Of a DNA stretch of 64,000 nucleotides, positions 5,702-39,580 are shown in pieces. The position numbers and the translations under genes are program-made. The stretch is from contig NW_026516804.1 in NCBI RefSeq assembly GCF_025766255.1, forward strand, positions 1 through 64,000, in the 5' to 3' direction. This DNA comes from Zychaea mexicana (Eukaryota > Mucoromycota > Mucoromycetes > Mucorales > Lichtheimiaceae). Numbering within the stretch: position 1 is the first letter of the stretch; the number at the start of each line of letters is the position of its first letter. The notes below the pieces were generated by a model. It had not been told where the DNA came from. It did not search any database and saw nothing but the letters and a program-made list of their open reading frames with translations.

Positions 5702-7078
5702 ATGTCAAGCCAAAATATTCGCAACCTAAAACAAATGTTCGATGAAAACATCAAGGAAGAACGCCAACGTCAGCGCAGAGTTGAGCGTCTTCAGAGAATC
5801 TTTGCAGCTGATGACCAAGACGACGATCAAGTGAGAAAACCCAGAAAAGGCTCTGTTCCTGGTCATCTCGTCATTAACCGCGATCGCGTTGGAAGTCATT
5901 GGCGTTTATACAATGACTATTTTGGCGACAATCCTATTTACCCGGAATACAAGTTCCGTACTCGTTTTCGCATGAGTCGTCGGCTTTTCAAACGGATCGT
6001 AAGCGAATTGGAGCAGAAAGATGCCTTCTTTCCACAGAAGTACGACGCGGCTCATACGCCTGGATTGACACCGCTGCAGAAAGCGACGGCAGCAATTCGC
6101 CAACTGGCATATGGCGTATCTGCCGATGCGACCGACGAATATGTTCGCCTAGGTGCAAGCACTGTTCTTGAGTGCTTAAAGCGCTTCTGCTTGGCAATCA
6201 GCCGCATCTTTGGTGACGAATACCTGTGCTCACCAAACGAGGATGATATCAAGCAGCTTCTTGATATGGCGGAAAAACGCGGATTCCCTGGCATGCTCGG
6301 TTCCTTGGACTGCATGCATTGGGAATGGAAGAACTGTCCTGCCAGATGGAAAGGACAATATCAAGGCAAGGAGAAGAAAGCTACAGTAATCCTTGAGGCT
6401 GTAGCAGACTTCGAAACATAGATCTGGCACGCGTTCTTCGGTCTCCCGGGTACGCTGAATGACATCAATGTCTTGCAGCGTTCCCCCATCTTCGATGATC
6501 TGGCGTCTGATGTTACGTCGCCCGTCAACTTTTCTGTCAATGGCCACAACTACACCAAAGGCTATTATTTAGTTGATGGTATTTACCCGCCGTGGGCTAC
6601 GTTTATAGATTCAATCACGCATCCGATTGAGAAGAAAAAAAAGGTAAATTTTAACAATGCATATGGAGAGCAGCAACTCTAACTACTTATATAGTTGTTT
6701 GCCTGTATGCAAGAAGCGTATCGTAAGGATGTCGAACGTGCCTTTGAGATCTTGCAAAGTAGATTTGCTGTGATTCGACACCCAGCAAGACTATGGCAAC
6801 CCGACGATCTGTCAATGGTTATGCGCGCATGCATAATCTTGCATAACATGATTGTTGAAGATCAGCGCTGCAATCCAGGAGAGGATGTTGCTGATGACAA
6901 CGAAGCCGAAGTATTGCGAAGTGTTGGATCGGCGCCCATTTTGACAGTTCGCAGGGATCCAAACAACATGAGCGAATACTTAAATCGCTATGATGAGATC
7001 AAGGATGTTGCGGTCCACGATCAACTGAAGAACGACCTCGTTGAGCATTTGTGGCAGCACCAAGGCAATATGATCTAG
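5702..7078 (+). pseudogene. PIF/Harbinger DDE transposase (HARBI1-like), one stop
   Basis: Exon 1 is 5702-6643, a 51-bp GT-AG intron is 6644-6694 and exon 2 is 6695-7078, giving about 441 codons. The basic, charged N-terminus is followed by the DDE_Tnp_4 core: GFPGMLGSLDCMHWEW near 6280-6330 carries the first Asp, FGLPGTLNDINVLQRSP near 6440-6490 the NDINVL motif, and YYLVDGIYPPW near 6560-6590 the second Asp. RKDVERAFEILQSRFAVI near 6725 carries the Glu. TAG at 6419-6421 replaces the Trp that normally precedes IWHAFFG. Otherwise the gene is intact, so the loss looks recent. The start ATG lies 160 bp inside the left terminus. Confidence 0.9.
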
Positions 7079-7115: not shown

Positions 7116-8042
7116 TTACTCGTCAACTTCGTCGTCGGTAGTCTGTTGAACTTCTACGTCCTGGACAATGGCTTTTGCGATTCTGGCCTTTGCATTGGCC
7201 AAAGCCTCGCCTTTTCTCAGCGTCCAATACTCGAGTTCAGCTCCTGAGTATCTGTCGAGCTGTTCTCGCATCACTTCATCGTCGTTCATTTTCTCCTGGA
7301 GCTCGATGCGCCTGCAGCTGTTCTAGACATGCTCCTCTTCAGCCTTCGCCAATCGAGCGCGATCATCGTCCAATTTACGCTTGCACGTTCCATCCTCCTT
7401 CTCTTGCTCCTTGGCTTTCTTGCGACCGATTGGGCGCTTCACATACTCAGGTGCGCTTTGATTTGTCACATTGACATACTTGTTACTGAACTTTGGTTGC
7501 TCATGAAGCTCATTGTAACAGTGTTGAAACTTCCAAGCAGATTTTGCAGCTTTCTTATACAGCGTTACTGCGTAGTCCTTCTTCACTCCCATATATTCAT
7601 CAGTACTGGTATCGTATCGTTTATGAAAACTAGCATCCCCTAACCTCATTTTCTTCGTTGTTTCTGCTTTTATTTCGCGCAAGAGCTTTTGCAAGACAAC
7701 CGCAGTATCTAGACACCTCTCTTTGGATGGTACCCTAGCAGCTCGAGAGGGCTCCCTGCTAGTTCGTACATCCATATCTCCCCCTCTTTGAAGAAAATCT
7801 TTGTAGATAGTCTCCCACAATATTTGGAGGGGAACATCGGTGCCCTTTGACGAACGAGTGGAGGTGGCAAGCCAGGATTGACACAACCACACATCCTCTT
7901 CATTGCTCCAGCTCGGACCGCGATTACCAGCTTTTGCTGCTGCTGCTGTCGACGATTCTGCGACAACTTCGGGAACGGTGGTCGATTCGACACGAGATTC
8001 GACATTAGTGATGGGAATCGGGGCAGAAGAACTGGAAGACAT
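7116..8042 (-). pseudogene. Harbinger accessory SANT/Myb-like protein, one stop
   Basis: This ORF of about 308 codons reads toward the transposase. Residues about 40-100 (PSWSNEEDVWLCQSWL...) resemble the trihelix/SANT-like DNA-binding region of proteins that accompany PIF/Harbinger transposases. The middle holds a NAM-associated-like segment (YKKAAKSAWKFQHCYNEL). The C-terminus is a long charged helix that probably forms a coiled coil. A single TAG at 7323-7325 stands where Gln is expected, and the frame continues to TAA at 7116. In known Harbinger systems this partner binds the termini and escorts the transposase to the nucleus. That role is inferred here. Confidence 0.8.
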
Positions 8043-11470: not shown

Positions 11471-14353
11471 TTAAGTGAATGGTTTACAGAATAAAGCGCA
11501 AATTATAATCAAGCTCGGGATCTTCGTGATCCATCGACGATCTTGACCAAAAACGTATTCTCGTTCGTTCCGCGCCTTTGTCACTCCGGCAAAGCTGACT
11601 ATGTCTTCAACATCTACGACCTTGAGCTTCGTTCCATTGATTTTACGTGGCCAAGAATCGTCGCTTCTTTCGGGGTTGGCAAATGTCGATAGCTGTACCA
11701 ATGCGAGCAGCCTATTGTTATCATCCCCAAAAGTATGGGTAAAAAAGTACTTTATATCACCGAAATATAGCTTTCGTTGGAATTCCATGTTTCGTCCCAG
11801 CCTTTGATCAATATTCACCCAAAGATGAAGGCGAACGAACGACGCATTGGCTCCACCGAATACATCACCACTGCTCTTCCAGAGCCTCCTGCCGGCCGTA
11901 ACCTTTTCTGTTGTATCAATGTACATGTCATTGTAGGAGCCTTTTTCCCATGCCCAAAAACGTCGGAGAGGTTGTTTGCATCCAAGGTCTGCCACTGTCA
12001 TCTCCTCGAATGGACCCCAAAGTTCAGGTGCCTCAGGATCATCAGATGCAGTAATGACTTCTTGCTGCTTTTCTTTGACTTCTTCCTTGTTGTTGATTCT
12101 TTGTTGGCGCCTGATAGCCAACAGGTCGATCAGAACATTACCGGCATTGGTACCAGCATCTCGCTTTGAATGGATGCGACGCTTTATTTCGCCAATTGCT
12201 CTTTTCATGGCAGAAGCTGCTAAAAATGGTAATGGCCCAAGTCGTTCGATCGTCTTGTAATGGTGCGCCAACAGATGCATGTTAATTGTATGCACATTTG
12301 GAGAGATATGACCGGACTTTGACTGTTCATACAGCCACTTGGTCCAAGAGTTTGCCGCATGTTTGAGTTCACTGATTTGATCTACACCAATTACTCGACA
12401 GAATGTATAGCGAAAAACGGTTGCCAAATCTGCCAGGGCTTATCTTGTACTAGCATCATCATAGAAATCCCAGATCGTAGTAGAAAACAAATACAAGCCA
12501 ACATGAATCCAGTCAATTGCACGGTAGAAACCACTTTGAAATGCAATGTCGCCACAATCTACACTAAACGACGATGGGGTAGACGCCCTTGATGCTCCAA
12601 TCAACATGCCGGTCTCGTTCCATGTGGCTCGTGGTAAGTACAATGGATTTCCTTCTTGCCTATATTTTCCACAGATTATCTGCCATACTTGTTTGGCTAC
12701 ACCTGCCATATTGTGCATAGGATCCATGGGAAAATAGGTGGCACCAGGAAAAACTGGGAGTTTTGAAAATGGCGTGGCTTTCTTGTGTCCTTTTGCATCA
12801 TTGATTGCTTTCTTTGAAGGGTTTGGGGCTCTTTTTTGCTTGAATGATTGGATCGACCGTACAGTAGGCTTTTCGTCTGCTTCTTTTAGTGCTGCTTCTT
12901 GGGTGGATGTGGATACTAATTTTTCATATGGCGGAAATGTCATGGTGTTGTTGATGTATTTGCCTCCGATTGTACAAAATCTGCAGCCGTAGTAATGGTG
13001 ATGAGAAGACATACACGCCATACGGGTTGATGCCGGGTAGTCGCCTCCAACGAAAAGAAGGTGTGCCTTGACATTAATAGTAGCCTGATCCACGGTTACA
13101 TCCATGCCATAATTGCAGAGTTCATGAAGCTCTTGTATGGTTGGCTCCAGGAAGCTGAAAAGATCAACTGGTTTTGCTGGACCGGGGCAGATGCAAACTT
13201 GAAGCATGTATTTGTCTTGAGTTCGGACACTTGGTGGAAAATTATATACGATGACATGCACAATGGTCATGGAATGCTGTGAGCGACGAAATGGGTTGAA
13301 GTCGTCAGTAAAAATCGCAATCCCCAGATCCATTTCACCGGTAAAGAAGGTAGGCTTTAGAATTTTATAAACGGCACTGTCCCAAAAATCCTTCATCAAG
13401 CCTTCCTCGGATACATATTCAGCGCGATACTTGAGCAGTTCGCGGGTGGCTTCATCCCGGATTAACAGCCGAAGCTGTTCTTTCAACGATAACTGGATCA
13501 TCGTCTTGCGTGCTGTTTTTCCATCAGCTTTGAATCGTGGGGTATGGCATGCTGAACATGACGTGCTTCTATCGCTCTTGGTGTACATCTTACAACCATT
13601 CTCGCATACATCATACTCAGACGGCTCAAGTGGATAACTTTTGCGTAAGACAGCACGTGCTGAATGGTAGCTGAGAAGTGGTGGGAGGACGCCCTTGATA
13701 TACTTGTTGGTTCGTTTTATAAACTTGTCAAATAGTGCCCGTGTTCCTCCATGTCGAACATGAAAACCAAACATGTCAATGCTTGCTTCTACGTTTTCTT
13801 CTTGATCGAGTTCAGCGTCGTTGCTGTTGAATCGTTGATTAAAAGCGACTTTGCTACTACTTGTATTTTCATAATGATTTTGAGGAGGCGTATTGATACT
13901 GAAAACTGATTGGAACCGACGTCTGACGCTACTGAAGTGAGCGTGCTATTTTACTGCCGCCTCTTTGACTTGAGGTGCTGGCAGTTGTTGTTTCGAGGCT
14001 GCTTACACGGGATAGCGGCTCAGGTACCGAAACATTGTCATCCGAAAATTTGTGCAGCGCTCGTCTGGCAGCTTGTGTTTGCTCTTCATGCAAAGAATTG
14101 CTGGTGGATGGTTGACTACTACTTCCTGCAGGCTGAAAGCAGAGTTAATAGGTGTCTTACCGATAGTAAAACAAATTACCTGGCTTTCAATAAAAGCAGT
14201 AAATTCATGCTCCACTTTTTTAATCGTCTTTTGAATACAAATTGCGCGATGAGCATTGTGATCGGCAGCGGTAGCCTTTCTTTCGATGCCGCAAAATGGA
14301 CATTTGAAGTTAGACTCTCTTGCTATTGCTGCTTTTTGGGGATTTTTGCTCAT
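11471..14353 (-). pseudogene. CACTA TNP2-type transposase (element A)
   Basis: A C2H2-like N-terminal finger (CPFCGIERKATAADHNAHRAIC pattern, split here) opens the gene at 14353. A likely intron lies near 14133-14180. From 13774 the long core follows. It has a Cys-rich motif (CENGCKMY...CSACHTPRF) and IFTDDFNPFRRSQHSMTIVH, in which DDFNPF matches the Asp-containing TNP2 motif. Next are CPGPAKPVDLFSFLEP, GDYPASTRMAC...YYGCRFC and FPMDPMHNMAGV (DPMH motif). One TAA at 12440-12442 stands where Gln is expected, after which the frame continues to TAA near 11471. A small frameshift is likely near 13920. The family call is good; the protein is interrupted. Confidence 0.85.
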
Positions 14354-29418: not shown

Positions 29419-30525
29419 TTACAGACGGCCTATGCGAAAATCCGAGATCTGCTCCGGCGGATCATCCTCTCGAGTGGTCAAGACCGCTGCATCATCTCGT
29501 CGCCCGCTGTTTTGGCGCCTTAGACAATGCATGGCACTGTGATCTGAGTACGGACAAGTTAGGCAAGCAGTTCGGCATTGTCTGGCGATATGACCATTCT
29601 TATTGCAGTTATAGCAGCGTGAATGTCTGTATTGGTTAGCAGGAAGGCCTGTCACGTTGGTCTCTGGTCGCCTCAGGATCTCCTTCTGAGCCGGTGCTGT
29701 AATATAGTTTTTCATCAATGCCTCCATCTTGTCAATTGCATTTGCGAGGCTGTTATCGAATTGCTCCTGCAGATCAGCAGCGACCGCACGTTCTGATCGT
29801 TGTGATTTTGACGAGGGCTGCACTACTGCTTGGTTTACAGCAAGCTGAGTGTACGGTTGATGCTGCGAGGTTGTTCCCAACTGTTGTGTTGATGCGACAT
29901 GTGAAAGATTGCCTATGCCGACGGTATAGCGTATCGCTTCCATGTGCCTCTCAGCTGAACGCACTGCTTCTTTCAACGCAGCTATGGTTTGTGGACGTGT
30001 TCCATGCAATAGCTCGCGATATTCCATTCGTAGGCCTTCAATGACGTCTGCAATTTTATCGCTTATTTCCAGCCTTGTGCCGCACCCTTTTTTGTATCGG
30101 CTCGCCATCGCAAGCTTGTTTATTGTGTATTGTAATCCTGATTCCTGCTGCAACTGCACACGCTGGCGGTACTCCCACCGGTACCTCTCCTGCCATCGTG
30201 CTGTTAGGAATTCGTTTTTGAACTGCATGACGAAGCAATCGTTGGTATCATCATCGAATGCGGTTGTTGCTTCTAGTTGAAGATCGTGCTCGAACCAATC
30301 TTTCGCGTGCACTTGCAGTGATAGCCCGGCCATCTCAATGCGTCTTTTATCGGTTTGCCAGTTATTTGCTACGGCAGCTTCCTTAAAGCTTTGGAGAAAC
30401 TTAAGAGGGTCATCCCGATTTGGGTCTCCTGCAAACTTGGGGGCGTCCACGCGTGATGCCTCCACATGCACAATCATTTGCTTTGTTTGTTCAGCTGATG
30501 ATGTATCCCCTTGGATGTCGGACAT
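29419..30525 (-). CDS. Retrotransposon Gag with CCHC zinc knuckle
   Basis: This ORF of 368 codons starts at ATG 30525. Residues about 30-170 match the Retrotrans_gag pattern (FAGDPNRDDPLKFLQSFKEA, DWFEHDL, FKNEFLTARWQERYRWEYRQR). A Gln-rich middle and a zinc knuckle CYNCNKNGHIARQC (near 29565-29605, CX2CX4HX4C) follow, then a second incomplete Cys/His cluster. It forms the particle and binds RNA in the cytoplasm. TAA at 29419-29421 ends it. The frame then continues into the protease region, and the expected residue there is probably Gln, so Gag may originally have been fused to the protease. Confidence 0.85.
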   Translation of the reverse strand: MSDIQGDTSSAEQTKQMIVHVEASRVDAPKFAGDPNRDDPLKFLQSFKEAAVANNWQTDKRRIEMAGLSLQVHAKDWFEHDLQLEATTAFDDDTNDCFVMQFKNEFLTARWQERYRWEYRQRVQLQQESGLQYTINKLAMASRYKKGCGTRLEISDKIADVIEGLRMEYRELLHGTRPQTIAALKEAVRSAERHMEAIRYTVGIGNLSHVASTQQLGTTSQHQPYTQLAVNQAVVQPSSKSQRSERAVAADLQEQFDNSLANAIDKMEALMKNYITAPAQKEILRRPETNVTGLPANQYRHSRCYNCNKNGHIARQCRTACLTCPYSDHSAMHCLRRQNSGRRDDAAVLTTREDDPPEQISDFRIGRL

Positions 30526-32480: not shown

Positions 32481-32624
32481 CACACACCTTGGACATACTA
32501 TTGTTACGGTGAATTTGGGGTATTCCAGGTAGTTGCGTAACGGTTTAAGTGTATGTTTTGTTGTGAGCACCAGTAATAATATCGTTTATTACAGACGGGT
32601 TGTGAAGTGATATGAGTGTAAAAT

Positions 32625-32940
32625 AAAGTAGAAATGTGTATAGTTTATGTCCAAGGGTGGAAATGATAGTGAGCTGATGTCTTGATTAAGCTCAGTGAGT
32701 AGAAATGAGGATCAGGGATGTTATGTCTGTCATTAAAGTAGAAATGTGTATGGTTTATGTCCAAGGGTGGAAATGGTAGTGAGCTGATGTCTTGATTAAG
32801 CTCAGTGAGTAGAAATGAGGATTAGGGATGTTACGTCTGTCCAAAATGAATGAGAAATAAGGATCAGGAATGCTACGTCTGTCCAAGTAAATGAGAAATA
32901 AGAGCAGGAATGTTACGTCTGGTCTTAATAGAAGAGTTTA
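32625..32940 (+). repeat. 110-bp tandem repeat plus shorter derivatives
   Basis: Two 110-bp copies start at 32625 and 32735 (AAAGTAGAAATGTGTATRG...GTGAGCTGATGTCTTGATTA), nearly identical by eye. Two shortened copies of the final part (GAGAAATAAGGATCAGGAATG, TACGTCTGTCCAA) follow to about 32920. Confidence 0.8.
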
Positions 32941-33943: not shown

Positions 33944-34490
33944 TTATATGATTTTTTTTCTTTTTTTTTCTACATTTTTGTGGTTTACAGCAGGGTTACT
34001 ATTCTGGAGTCGTCTATTCATGCCTTCTTGGCGATTGCCAAACATGAGGCGGCAACAATCTTGACAGTATGTATTGGTGGGTATCCAAGTGAATGTGTTT
34101 TGCAGGATAATGTTTAGGATGATGGGTCTCACTTGATCCTCTGTAAAATAAGCTTGAGGCCGGACGCAGCATCTCGCTACAAGCCTGTTTGTGTGACCTA
34201 CTAATTGCATTAGCTGTTCGTTGGCGTATTCCCTCATAGCCAATAGTGTAGTGGCTTCAGAGAACTTGCAGATAAGTTCGATGTGCGTATTCAAGTCCTC
34301 TTGGACGAGACTTGCTATCCTTCCGTAGGTATTTTCAACGTTTCCCTTCATAATTGGTGGTGTTGACGATCTTTCGTTGCCTTCGTGAACATCATCTAAT
34401 TCCATTGGCTCGCAGCGCCATCCGCCTTCTTGAGTTATTGGGGTATATATTGGTTCAGGGCCCCATGGGGACCGGCCATGGTTATGATGA
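33944..34490 (-). pseudogene. Unknown retroelement-associated ORF, 3' part
   Basis: The - frame reads HNHGRSPWGPEPIYTPITQE, then MELDDVHEGNERSSTPPIMK, NVENTYGRIASLVQEDLNTH and ANEQLMQLVGHTNRLVARC, a helical, gag-like or structural protein. One TAA lies near 34485. It ends near 33944. It is cut off on its upstream side close to the left end of the Rep/transposase element. A short ORF of similar layout lies beyond the right end of that element (38155-38292). The two may be the halves of one gene split by the insertion, although the frames do not join cleanly. Confidence 0.4.
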
Positions 34491-34617
34491 TTTTAATGCA
34501 GTCTAGTAACCCTAGATGACTAATTAGCTAAAATATGTCAGGATAGCCAAACTAATTTTTATTGAAATAATTCATGCACGAATGTCTTGGCATGCATACA
34601 TTTAAATTTTTGAAAAA

Positions 34618-34640
34618 AAATAAAAATTGAATTTTTTTTT
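34618..34640 (+). repeat. Left inverted A/T tract of Rep/transposase element
   Basis: AATAAAAATTGAATTTTTTT followed by more T; its complement occurs at 38027-38050. The shared core is about 20 bases, longer than expected by chance even in AT-rich DNA, because the central TTGAA is included. Confidence 0.6.
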
Positions 34641-34732
34641 TAATATAAAAATAATACCACAGAATATAAAGCAAAATATATTTGTTATATTTTTTTAGCA
34701 CTCTAACAAAACTACCCCAACAAAAACACAAC

Positions 34733-36760
34733 ATGGACCAAATGAACCTCCTCACATTTATTGCCATTATGGCTGAATTTATTCCTATTTTAGGAATAAC
34801 ATTGACGCTCTTAATAGAAAGAGCAAAGCATCTTACTGAACATCATCAAGATGTTAGTGAAAAAACAATTGCTGACCAACTAAGGGTCGAACTCGAAAAG
34901 GACCTCAAAAAGGCTAACATAACAAAGGAAGTAAGGGACGAGAACCATACTGCAATAATGGGATGGATTAGGGCTTTTGCAAAATTCCTCAAATCCTCAA
35001 ATCCTCAATTTTCCGATGCAATGTTAGAGGGTAACACCTCTGGTGCAGATTCCTCGCAGGGCGGCAAAGAATTCCGATTCCAAAACACTAAAGGGCTGTT
35101 CACATATATTTGTAAGGACTTCCATTTAACAAAAGAACAAATCATGGAATGGTTTATAAAACATGAACGTATTGGTTATCGAATTGAAAAGGCAATTGCA
35201 TGTGACGAAATTGCACCAGAAACTGGTGAGAAACATGTTCATATATGGATACAAATGAATGAGCGGTTCGACACAAAAACAGCACGTAAATTCTTTACTA
35301 TCGATGGTGTTACTCCAAATATTAAACCAGGTGGTAATCCACAAAAGTCCATTAGCTACTGTATGAAAGGAAAAGATTATATTTGCTATAATATGGATCC
35401 AAATTATGAAGTTAAGACCAGAAAAATGCACCAACAGTTACTTGGATATCAATTAATTACGAAGCAGCTTAATATGCAGAAGGCAACTGAAATATATCCA
35501 GAATTACTATGGAAATATGATACTGTAAAATCAAATTTAAATTCTTACTTTCATGATGCAGATATGGAAAAATAACCCTGGAAATAAATTACATATGTGG
35601 TCTATGTTTAGGATTGAAACAATGTTTGGTGGTAAAAATAAGATACCACAATACTGGATTGTAGGTCCATCAAATGTAGGTAAGACATATAACATTGATG
35701 TATTAGAACAAGGTGGCCATCGAGCATATCTAATGGATAAAGAAAATGATTGGTCAGATTATAAGGATGATGATTATGATTTTATGTATAATGAAGAAAC
35801 AGGTTCTGATTTCAAATTAACATTTTTAAACCAAATGTTAGAAGGAACACAGTTAAAACTTAATGGCAAATTCACAAAGTCAATAACTAAAAAGAAAAAT
35901 ATGCCAATAATACTGAATAGTAACTATATGCCGCACATGTTATACAAAAACAAATCAGTATATGAGTTAGAGCCAACGCTCAATCGTTTATATATTATCT
36001 ATGTTGATAAGAACCGTAAAGGTCATATAATATGGAATCTATACACAATGAAGGTGAAGGATTATGAAAATAAATTCATGTATTATGAAAACATGGATAT
36101 GTATGAGGACTTATACAAAGGTGAATTCGAAAACTAATACCAAGATCAGCATACATTTATCCGTTATGCACATAATAGTGGTTAGGATGATATTAAAAAA
36201 TATACACCGATGGATAAAACAGTAGAGGAACTACAAGAATTAGCTGACACAGAAGAATATATGAAGGAACAAGAAGAAAAACATAATAGTAATAATACAC
36301 AGAACAATAAACAACATAATCCGCCTCAACAAAATAATAGAGGATGGTCAACTATAAAGGTACCATCATCAGTAGATTGTAGGCATTGGGAAGATGTGTT
36401 TAATAATATATAAAATGTGATGATGTTGTAAATGATACTACTGATTGGGAAACCCCACCAGAAGATATAGAGAAACATAAATACATAGATGTAAGTACAT
36501 CTGAATCAGAGAAAAGCAGTGACTGCAACATACCAAATAATATACCAAAACGTAAAAAGAAAAAAAGACACATTAAAAATAAACGGAGAAACAAGCAAAT
36601 AGTAGAAGAAATACAGCCAAAAGAATATTTTAAAAAGCATAAGGATATAAAAAAGGCTATAATAGATGATATAGATATAACAAAAGAAACTGACGTCAAA
36701 AATAAATCAACAGATACTAATATAAGTACAAGTATAAGCCCATATCTATTGATTGATTAA
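34733..36760 (+). pseudogene. CRESS-DNA-type replication initiator (Rep), interrupted
   Basis: ATG at 34733 has good context (ACAACATGG); an upstream in-frame ATG at 34682 lies in AT-rich leader. Residues about 5-30 form a hydrophobic segment, unusual for Rep. The HUH endonuclease follows: motif 1 LFTYICKDF (about residue 121), motif 2 KHVHIWIQM (HUH, about 166) and motif 3 ISYCMKG with catalytic Tyr and Lys (about 208). Then comes the SF3 helicase: Walker A GPSNVGKT (about 35670), Walker B-like DYDFMYNEE (about 35775) and motif C PIILNSNYM (about 35905). A one-base frame change at an A run near 35565 separates the two domains. TAA at 36135-36137 and TAG at 36183-36185 stand where Gln would fit. 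An Asn/Gln-rich and then Lys-rich tail (KRKKKKRHIKNKRR) runs to 36760 after another shift near 36405. Rep nicks and unwinds circular ssDNA genomes. Viral type is clear; activity of this copy is unlikely. Confidence 0.85.
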
Positions 36761-37961
36761 TGTTAAGCTGTAGAAATTTCTGCTGCATGTCAGCCATTTC
36801 GTTATATTCAATATTTACTTTTTGCTCATTTGAAAATACCAAGTCAAGTTTGTTTTTCTTACTTGGGAATTCAAAATCTTTTCTATACCATAATTTATGA
36901 TGTGGTTGTACCTCTATATTATACTTATTCACAAATCGCCATATATTAGTAAGAATACAAGCAACACGAAACTGAATATTATGATATCTTATATTGGTTA
37001 TTTGCAATGCTGCACGATTATTATTAATTCGTTCAAATTTAGAGCCTAACATAGAGAACTGTGCTTCTATTGCTGAACGAAATGATCTAAACTTGTTATT
37101 AGAGTATGTCTCATTGATTATTAAATTTTGTCCTCGTTCTTTTCTTATGGGATGTAAAAAATTACGATCATAAAAACTATATCCAGCATCTGTCGCATTA
37201 TCTTTAAACTTTTGTATAAATAAGTTATATCCACCATCTATTCCTAAACAATCTGCCTCACTTATTTTTTTATATAGTTTCATATTAATAAACATAGTAC
37301 CATCATTTCCGATAGCACATTTCTCAGATACTGAAACATGTGTAATTATTTCATTCATATCCTGTATAACTTGTGTACGTACAGCTAGCCCTTTTAATTT
37401 ATATGAATATAACTGTGAATGTGACTCATTTGGTTTATAATACTTAATTTTACTCTCATGTCCATCAATAAATAGTGTAACATTCTTAAAACCATCCGGA
37501 TTGTTTATTATTGCTGATAGAATGCGAATACGTGGTGATGAGAACATACTATCTAGATCTTGTTTTACCTTTTTATTCAATTCATTATAGTTAGTAATCC
37601 AGAACCGCTTATATAAATCGTAAAATGTTGCATATGGCATAACAGTATGCATATCCTTTCCTGATACACCTGATACCATATGATATAATAATGCAAGTCC
37701 TTTTCAATCTCGCAGTATGGCCCTGGATATTCAATATTTCCATATAAAACTGTAAGAAAATAAAATACAGGTATAAATTAATCTATTAAGTAATACATCC
37801 TTTATATCATTTATTGTATTATTCTTCATATCTTTAATAGCTGTTCTATGATTAAATCTATGTTGCATTTCAGGCCAAGATTTATCAAGAAAAGTCCATT
37901 TATTATCAATTAAATTTTTAATTTCAATATCGAGTTGTTCAGTATGTTGTGTTGTGTTCAT
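36717..37961 (-). CDS. DDE transposase (PIF/IS5-like fold) of the Rep element
   Basis: The main ORF, 36717-37679 (320 codons), is intact. It shows VTLFIDGHESK (first Asp, about residue 74), CLGIDGGYNLF (second Asp, about 168) and RSAIEAQFSMLGSKF (Glu, about 211), spaced like the DDE_Tnp_4/IS5 group. An upstream frame from ATG 37961 (MNTTQHTEQLDIEIKNLI) probably forms the N-terminus. It is joined by a short intron with acceptor TTCTTACAG near 37743-37751, and a one-base frame change near 37695 separates YGNIEYPGPYCEIEKD from the rest. The protein would move the element by cutting and pasting. It differs clearly from the Harbinger transposase at 5.7 kb. The family assignment rests on motifs only. 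Confidence 0.7.
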
Positions 37962-38026
37962 TTTTATTTGTTGTTATGTACTTTAAACAACCGCTCTTTT
38001 TTTTTCTCATGGGAGGCTACCAATAT

Positions 38027-38050
38027 AAATAAAAAAATTCAATTTTTATT
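38027..38050 (-). repeat. Right inverted A/T tract of Rep/transposase element
   Basis: AAAAAAATTCAATTTTTATT, the complement of the left tract at about 34619. Just outside it, CTATATTAC at 38118-38126 matches the CRESS nonanucleotide NANTATTAC at every fixed position but one. No convincing flanking stem was found. Confidence 0.6.
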
Positions 38051-38154
38051 ATTTTTATTGTAAATCAATAATTAATTCGGCCACTGATGGTTATACCAGT
38101 CATAGCAACTTTATTATCTATATTACAGCTAGTAGATTATAATTGGTTAGACAA

Positions 38155-38292
38155 CTAATAGCAGGACGCCCATCCTTCATCCAGATCGTGGACGGCCTCA
38201 GTAGGGTTGTTGTTGTAATTGGTGCTCCATGGAGCTGGAAAGTAGACCCCGTCGGTTGTGTTATTCTTGATGTTGTGGTTGTTCATGTTCAT
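38155..38292 (-). pseudogene. Short ORF 3' of Ty3 pol, unknown
   Basis: ATG at 38292 opens MNMNNHNIKNNTTDGVYFPA and ends EGWASCY before TAG at 38155-38157. It lies about 170 bases downstream of the - strand pol C-terminus and is cut near the right end of the Rep/transposase element. It may be the 5' half of the ORF seen at 33944-34490. Confidence 0.4.
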
Positions 38293-38459: not shown

Positions 38460-39580
38460 TTATGCATTTGCACGTTTATTTTTCAAAGTTATTGATCTAT
38501 GATGAACGTCCTCTGGTAGGTCGATAGCTACTATCTCTTTTCTTCTTTTTCTTTGTTTTTCTCTGATTTCCTGCATTTTTAGTCCTTCTCGATTTTCCTT
38601 GCTGCGGCATCGTCTGTGTTGTTTCGTCTTGGTCTGATTCTGATACATCTTCTTGTGGTGGTACTGCATCGAACTCGTCGGTAATGAGGTGCAGCTATGC
38701 CTGAGATATTGGGCTCGGTACTCGGTATCAGGTAAAGTATAAGAGCGCAATCGGTTTCAATGGTAGGGGTTCAGTAGGAATCTTCCTTGCATCGTTTTTA
38801 ATCGATAGGTACCGCATTTGTTGACCTTGTGAATCAAGAATGGTCCTTCCCATAGATCTTCTAGGCATCCTGCCCAATTTCCTTCTAAGTAATTTTAATA
38901 TACTTGAACAGTATCTCCTATTCGGAAAGGGCGTTTCAGTTCCTTGCCTTGTTGTAGTAATTTCCGTTTGATTCTCTGTTTCTGTGCCGCTTGTGCACTT
39001 TTGATTGTATCAATCGCTTCTTCTCTTATTGTATTGAGTCTTGTGATATGTTCCTCAAATAAGTCAGGTATGATCGTATCTTCGTCGCACTCATCATCCT
39101 CTTCCAGGAGATCTGCAATGTTTGTTTGTGGTTGCACGTGTCGGTCGAAAGGTGTATGTGGTTCTCGTCTATAGATCAAGTAAAATGGAGATCTCTTCGT
39201 CGTTTCTTGTCGAATACTGCGGTATGCGAATAGTAATGCAGGTAGATACATTAGCCAGTTCTTCTTTTCTTCTTTATTGAGTCTTTTCAACATGACTCCG
39301 ACCGTTCGATTATATCGTTCGACTAGTCCGTTCGCTTGTGGATGATATGGTGATGTGAGTCGATGTTCGATGCCGTATTGCTTGCAGACGGCATTTACAA
39401 GGTTGTTTTGGATAGGTAAGCCATTGTCTGAGCACAAAACACGTGGGCAGCCATGTATAGTAATGACACATTCGTAAACAAACAGAGAAACTTCTGCTGC
39501 ATTTGCCACTTGTAAGGCACGTGCTTCGACTTATTTGCTGAAAGAACAAATAGCTACAAATTCTCAAGGCTGGTCATTTG
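38460..39580 (-). pseudogene. Ty3/gypsy integrase and pol C-terminus (- strand)
   Basis: The integrase core reads VEARALQVANAAEVSLFVYE, VLCSDNGLPIQNNLV (second Asp), YHPQANGLVERYNRT (Glu), FAYRSIRQETTKRSPFYLIY and KRPFRIGDTVQVY. A C-terminal GPFLIHKVNKCGTYRLKTMQG...NRLRSY module follows. The first catalytic Asp region (..AICSFSK then stop near 39535) is mutated. In-frame stops lie at 38895-38897 (TAA) and near 38760 (TGA). Upstream pol is missing, so this is a 3' end like the + strand copy at 2.9-4.3 kb, from a related but distinct family. A Lys/Arg-rich tail runs to 38460, then an AAGAAGACAAAAGGGG polypurine-like run near 38355-38370. Confidence 0.8.

Follow-up and report, generated by a model that had tools for sequence, protein, structure and literature searches.

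Circular Rep-encoding single-stranded (CRESS) DNA viruses have an ambisense two-gene layout, with the gene starts facing the junction. Helitrons and Replitrons move by means of an HUH enzyme itself, without a DDE transposase, and the helicase of Helitrons is of the superfamily 1 (SF1) type. PIF/Harbinger elements have a TWA-type target, and the second gene of Harbinger is of the Myb/SANT type. To our knowledge, Helitrons make no target duplication on insertion, cut-and-paste DDE elements as a rule lack a replication gene of their own, and CRESS-type viruses lack an integrase. Here we describe an element from a 64,000-nucleotide stretch of the Zychaea mexicana genome (contig NW_026516804.1, positions 1 to 64,000; the window) in which a Rep gene, encoding an HUH nickase and a superfamily 3 (SF3) helicase, is convergent with a DDE transposase gene. 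An earlier interpretation of the letters alone (the sequence-only reading) knew of no described family with this pair, but a precedent exists: Liu et al. 2011 (PMC3198968) describe a repeat of Tuber melanosporum with a geminivirus-like Rep open reading frame (ORF) and two transposase ORFs. According to these authors, the repeat is bounded by terminal inverted repeats of 37 bp, an obvious target duplication is absent, and fungal Reps are nearest to SsHADV-1. Rep and transposase in one fungal repeat were thus already known in print, and this truffle report was the only precedent for the pairing among the papers listed in our literature searches.

A mobile unit with defined ends

The window holds a damaged copy of a DNA transposon family of about 4.05 kb. 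We consider it probable that the transposon gained its Rep gene and that this Rep, which is under selection, is replicative. The element ends were set by aligning the flanking sequences of copies retrieved from this genome (50.3 Mb in 305 contigs). They place the window copy at 34467-38170 (+; 3,704 bp), so the borders of the 3.4-kb segment proposed earlier were wrong. The trinucleotide CAT stands directly outside the left end (34464-34466) and directly outside the right end (38171-38173) as a target-site duplication. The left terminal sequence GGGGACCGGCCATG (34467-34480, +) is an imperfect inverted match to the right one, GGCGTCCTGCTATT (38157-38170, −), as defined from the aligned copies; the inverted match holds at 9 of the first 13 positions. 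The majority of copies start with GGGGAC(C/T) and finish with AATAG(C/T)AGGACGCC. Inverted A/T tracts had been taken to flank the two genes. These exist (34613-34646, +, and 38023-38056, −; 34 nt, 91% complementary) but are subterminal, lying 146 and 114 bp inside the left and right ends, respectively.

With up to three mismatches allowed, the genome contained 63 occurrences of the 5′ end pattern and 64 of the 3′ end pattern, against none for the controls. For 40 of the 5′ ends a 3′ end lay within 7 kb downstream, and the resulting element was 4,001-4,075 bp long in 21 of the 40 cases. Among 21 end pairs at fetched loci, 14 had an identical flanking 3-mer. The same comparison at control offsets of 1-8 gave 0, 0, 1, 0, 0, 1, 0 and 0 agreements, and left and right 3-mers taken from different loci agreed in 19 of 420 cases. 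Once loci with shared flanks were merged, the 3-bp duplication was present at 12 of 17 sites, with varied targets (cat, att, taa, aag, tca, cta, aca, ctc, aat and atg).

Protein searches of the genome gave at least 69 Rep and at least 93 transposase matches; only the best candidates were scored, so that these lists, and the locus counts derived from them, are lower bounds. Grouped by place, they make 59 Rep loci, 56 loci of close transposases and 25 of distant transposases (46-65% identity). A close transposase is convergent within 1.5 kb at 33 of the 59 Rep loci, and in 14 of the 33 pairs only 3-6 bp separate the ends of the two protein matches. Such colinearity argues that the pairing is not due to chance. 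Copy L033 (4,039 bp) is covered by Rep and transposase except for about 260 and 200 nt, leaving no room for a separate capsid gene. The shared ends, the 3-bp target duplications and the many dispersed colinear copies support Rep and transposase as one mobile unit, as the sequence-only reading had proposed.

Two further arrangements of these ends were seen. One, at C106:28695-28845, is a copy of 151 bp that has the two ends of the Rep element and resembles a miniature inverted-repeat transposable element. At C271:4588-6137 and 12694-14242 a tail is followed on the same strand by a head, at distances of 1,548 and 1,547 bp; the two places are perhaps a duplicated element cluster.

The window copy itself is dead, with Rep split over two frames and both C-termini deleted. 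The N-terminal part of Rep, with the HUH endonuclease domain (34733-35575, +), is broken from the next frame, which contains the SF3 helicase part and ends at a stop (35553-36137, +); the remaining C-terminal coding region follows at 36138-36739 (+; tblastn matches 35568-36413 and 36407-36739). All the motifs on which the gene had been recognised were located, namely the HUH motifs KHVHIWIQM (35231-35257) and ISYCMKG (35351-35371) and the SF3 motifs GPSNVGKT (Walker A, 35664-35687) and PIILNSNYM (35904-35930), although the gene carrying them is not intact. On the opposite strand, convergent to Rep as claimed, is a DDE_Tnp_4 transposase frame (36740-37961, −; Pfam E 3.9e-10). It is broken into ORFs 36717-37679 and 37731-37961, has lost its chromodomain and is not the intact 320-codon gene first described, since naturally uninterrupted copies encode 494 amino acids (aa) including a chromodomain.

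A 366-bp deletion at 36737-36740 removed the Rep C-terminus and the transposase chromodomain; placed on L033, it corresponds to about 35 C-terminal Rep codons and about 85 transposase codons. The overlap of the two genes at their 3′ ends, as seen in the window, is a product of this deletion. A true overlap does exist in the two full-length copies checked (L017 and L033), but it spans only 4 nt, stop codon on stop codon.

Rep, transposase and the modules around them

Uninterrupted Rep (copies L032 and L033) has 703 aa with HUH and SF3 domains. Its dN/dS, the ratio of nonsynonymous to synonymous divergence, was 0.16-0.18 in three pairs, indicating purifying selection, and YxxK and Walker A are kept in every alignment row that has letters at those positions. 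Selection thus maintains the amino acid sequence of Rep. In a fold search with the HUH domain of an uninterrupted copy, geminivirus and redondovirus Reps matched, the best solved folds being the Reps of tomato yellow leaf curl virus (TYLCV) and Vientovirus FB. The helicase motifs are of the SF3 type, and viral SF3 Reps were listed in the fold search. Pieces of the Rep are 54-88% identical to Circinella minor proteins, and the named database relatives found come from Rhizopus and Circinella only. Residues 1-85 (about 250-500 of the L033 element) exist in two versions, with about 75% or 92-96% identity to L033 among otherwise similar copies, which looks like a swapped specificity region.

The uninterrupted transposase (L018, L022, L038 and L040) combines a DDE_Tnp_4 core (Pfam 5.3e-11, 42.8 bits, cut-off 24.8) with a C-terminal chromodomain. 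Across 27 sequences its catalytic residues D167 and E300 are invariant and D243 nearly so. It is 78% identical to a Circinella minor protein; as far as transposon proteins alone can tell, such closeness suggests a host within Mucorales. In a tree of the 27 transposases it groups with Circinella P0015 (support 1.0). The node joining it to the group of L046, a distant relative, has a support of 0.28, and the tree therefore does not fix the order of events.

Rep appears to be an accessory gene that a DDE transposon acquired. This is the simpler story because the transposase family is the larger one and has distant members without Rep in this genome. None of the 25 distant-transposase loci listed has a Rep match within 6 kb, the nearest being at 6.25 kb (C35). 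With P0006 as a second Rep query, 62 matches were obtained; most fell on the loci already found, a few were additional pieces, and when the tables were compared none lay within 6 kb of a distant transposase. Three of the 25 loci were read (L046, L047 and L048). At L047 and L048 the genes are likewise convergent, and a Cys/His-containing ORF of 162-173 aa stands where Rep would be; L046, as we read it, carries an ORF of the same type in the following unit and a decayed copy in the slot itself, and the size range over the three loci is 162-175 aa. In the Rep-less relatives that were read, a similar A/T tract lies upstream of the second ORF. With such relatives, we do not favour the earlier view of a transposase occupying the capsid position.

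The main family also has a variant, B (L018 unit 1 and L039, mutually 95% identical), which shares the main-family ends and, in the transposase region, is 96% identical to the main family. Other ORFs replace most of its Rep, which survives as remnants of 25 and 30 residues. Neither these ORFs nor those of L046-L048 had a Pfam match above the cut-off. A partner element, N, measures about 1.19 kb; its ends are related to those of the main family, and it encodes two small ORFs but neither Rep nor transposase. At least 52 genome matches to N were found (the best 40 of 146 candidates were scored), 17 of them full length. Four of seven single N copies with both flanks read have a plain 3-bp duplication (TCA, ACA, CTA and TAC), and two more have one (TTA and AAT) if the first base of the head was changed or lost; the seventh, C124, has none. 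Its similar ends and 3-bp duplications suggest that N is probably mobilised in trans.

Tandems and competing explanations

A tail, 15 bp and a head followed one another at seven places in the genome, against none for the control. The search pattern fixes the length of 15 bp; looser looks gave no other short spacing. Each of the seven linkers is within one base of AATTTTAAAAATTCA, despite differing unit types (N-A in C79, C51 and C194; A-N in C53 and C303; B-A in C115; A-A′ in C174), and the linker was not found beside single ends. At most six of the tandems are independent, as the left flanks of C51 and C194 look alike by eye. TCA flanks the C115 tandem on either side, so this one, at least, appears to have gone in as a single piece. 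The seven junctions are suggestive of concatemers, and would fit rolling-circle products or circles that lose the linker at insertion.

On C79, about 237492-241542 and 253187-257237 (L024 and L023), an inverted duplication includes the insertion and its right flank, 99.6% identical over 5.4 kb. Its breakpoint coincides with the element's 5′ end, and one side is joined by the linker to a truncated N unit. It could be a rearrangement made by the transposase.

In the explanation that we favour, as far as the anatomy of the copies goes, the transposase would recognise the short imperfect terminal inverted repeats, move the unit and insert it with a 3-bp target duplication. The convergent CRESS-type Rep would have been gained by a DDE transposase lineage; those of its distant members that were read have another small ORF instead. 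By nicking the element and copying it in an excised or circularised form, Rep would most likely raise the copy number, and this replication may occasionally yield head-to-tail concatemers able to re-insert. The 1.19-kb partner, lacking both genes, would probably be moved in trans, judging by its ends and duplications.

Several observations weigh against this explanation. No partner match lies within 1.5 kb at 26 of the 59 Rep loci and 23 of the 56 close-transposase loci; some of these loci are at contig ends, some are deleted and some are variant B. The second HUH histidine is replaced by tyrosine in 2 of 11 alignment rows (L049 and P0005). An outer target duplication is demonstrated for only one of the seven tandems, C115: none was seen at C51 or C303, C194 is ambiguous, and an outer end is truncated or out of reach in C53, C79 and C174. 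In the Rep-less L046, perfect direct repeats of 88 nt, 1,105 bp apart, flank the second ORF and make a tandem without Rep, so concatemers need not stem from Rep. Four junctions and two ends folded as DNA gave no hairpin above those of shuffled sequences. A circle driven by Rep, as proposed in the sequence-only reading, agrees with the 15-bp linker and has against it the lack of a stable hairpin in the folded junctions and the tandem in a Rep-less relative; it stays a hypothesis. Finally, the two halves of the element diverge discordantly. The mean pairwise distance among 21 copies is 0.066 in the Rep half and 0.026 in the transposase half, with a correlation of 0.21; L038 and L033 differ by 13.8% in Rep and 1.5% in the transposase, and L032 and L033 by 4.4% and 3.4%. 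Thus, cassettes have been exchanged and copies are mosaics.

It is possible, though on balance unlikely, that the element is a plain cut-and-paste DDE transposon in which Rep is a passenger or has a non-replicative role, such as end binding, repair of the donor site or escape from silencing. The slot is modular, being filled by the Cys/His-containing ORF in L046-L048 and largely by other ORFs in variant B, which keeps its ends and transposase. A tandem exists without Rep, the transposase alone accounts for the 3-bp duplications, and the second HUH histidine is lost in 2 of the 11 rows. The purifying selection and the retention of YxxK and Walker A, however, fit an active nickase-helicase.

Somewhat more doubtful is a full division of labour, in which the DDE transposase would excise and insert the element and Rep would multiply an extrachromosomal circle in between, making a two-component virus-like episome that lives as a transposon. 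The 15-bp linker would then be a part of the circle that is dropped on insertion, and the concatemers would also carry the 1.19-kb partner.

In the reverse history, a circular CRESS-like element would have taken up a transposase where its capsid gene had been and so turned into a transposon; this appears improbable. The ambisense pair of genes with their starts facing the end junction is CRESS-like, as is the fold of the Rep. Against this, of the two partners the transposase proved the more diverse and the more widely distributed in our searches, with 25 distant loci that have no Rep nearby and 95 database relatives compared with 10 for Rep (query residues 100-480). The convergent layout recurs in L047 and L048, where the partner gene is a different one, and no relative was found in three viral contig scans.

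That a Rep element and a transposon came together by accident in two independent nested insertions, as the unpaired loci counted above might suggest, is contradicted for the main family by the aligned copies, whose order, orientation, spacing and outer ends are constant at dispersed sites, each with its own target duplication, and we give it hardly any credence.

Surroundings and comparison with known systems

When the flanks of the window copy are joined with a single CAT, one minus-strand frame runs across the site, from MNMNNHNIKNN to KKRKKII. The Rep element therefore interrupts an ORF of about 200 residues (33944-34405 and 38174-38290, −). No Pfam family was found for the left part of this ORF, and no empty second copy of the site was found in the genome. 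A Ty3-like gag with a zinc knuckle lies at 29419-30525 (−) and an integrase-core piece at 38895-39509 (−), on the other side of the element; except for the zinc knuckle, their Pfam matches are below the cut-off. An insertion into an older retroelement, as first suggested, is plausible from these two pieces, although the left part of the interrupted ORF adds no Pfam match to it. Two 108-nt direct repeats, 96% identical with a spacing of 110 bp, occupy 32624-32841.

Elsewhere in the window, a Plant_tran (PF04827) transposase piece and a nearby ORF that is weakly NAM-associated-like, below the cut-off, lie at 5702-6421 (+) and 7323-8042 (−); they mark a second DNA transposon, with the usual Harbinger-type pair. 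BLASTP of the element's transposase against this Plant_tran transposase gave no significant match. A Transposase_21 (tnp2, CACTA-like) transposase ORF is present at 12440-13774 (−).

A clearly amplified family that joins a DDE transposase and a Rep is a natural test of whether a viral initiator can make a cut-and-paste transposon replicative, and of how viruses and transposons trade modules in fungi. The question becomes testable with this further case, which differs in structure from the first and offers defined ends, target duplications, selection on Rep and a sister lineage without Rep. As far as the literature was searched, these four features are new, as are the transposase type, the partner element and the linker tandems.

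Like Helitrons and Replitrons, the element is a eukaryotic transposon with an HUH nickase; unlike Helitrons, it inserts with a 3-bp target duplication. Its helicase motifs, of the SF3 type, may also set it apart from them. It shares with CRESS-DNA viruses (geminiviruses and redondoviruses) an HUH and SF3 Rep and two ambisense genes. It differs from them in lacking a capsid gene, in forming integrated repeats with 3-bp target duplications, and in the length of its 703-aa Rep, with long extra N- and C-terminal parts. The DDE_Tnp_4 domain, the 3-bp duplication and a second gene beside the transposase are shared with PIF/Harbinger and other DDE_Tnp_4 (IS5-like) elements. However, there is no TWA-type bias here, taa alone among the duplications fitting it; the second gene in the main family is a Rep rather than a Myb/SANT type, and the transposase has a C-terminal chromodomain.

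Also among the closest known systems is the Tuber repeat (PMC3198968), which is likewise a fungal family joining a geminivirus-like Rep and transposase ORFs, with recent amplification. Compared by description, the Zychaea element differs in its short imperfect ends and 3-bp duplications, and in having one DDE_Tnp_4-chromodomain transposase instead of two transposase ORFs. It further differs from that description in its partner element, its fixed-linker tandems and the named relatives of its Rep from Rhizopus and Circinella.
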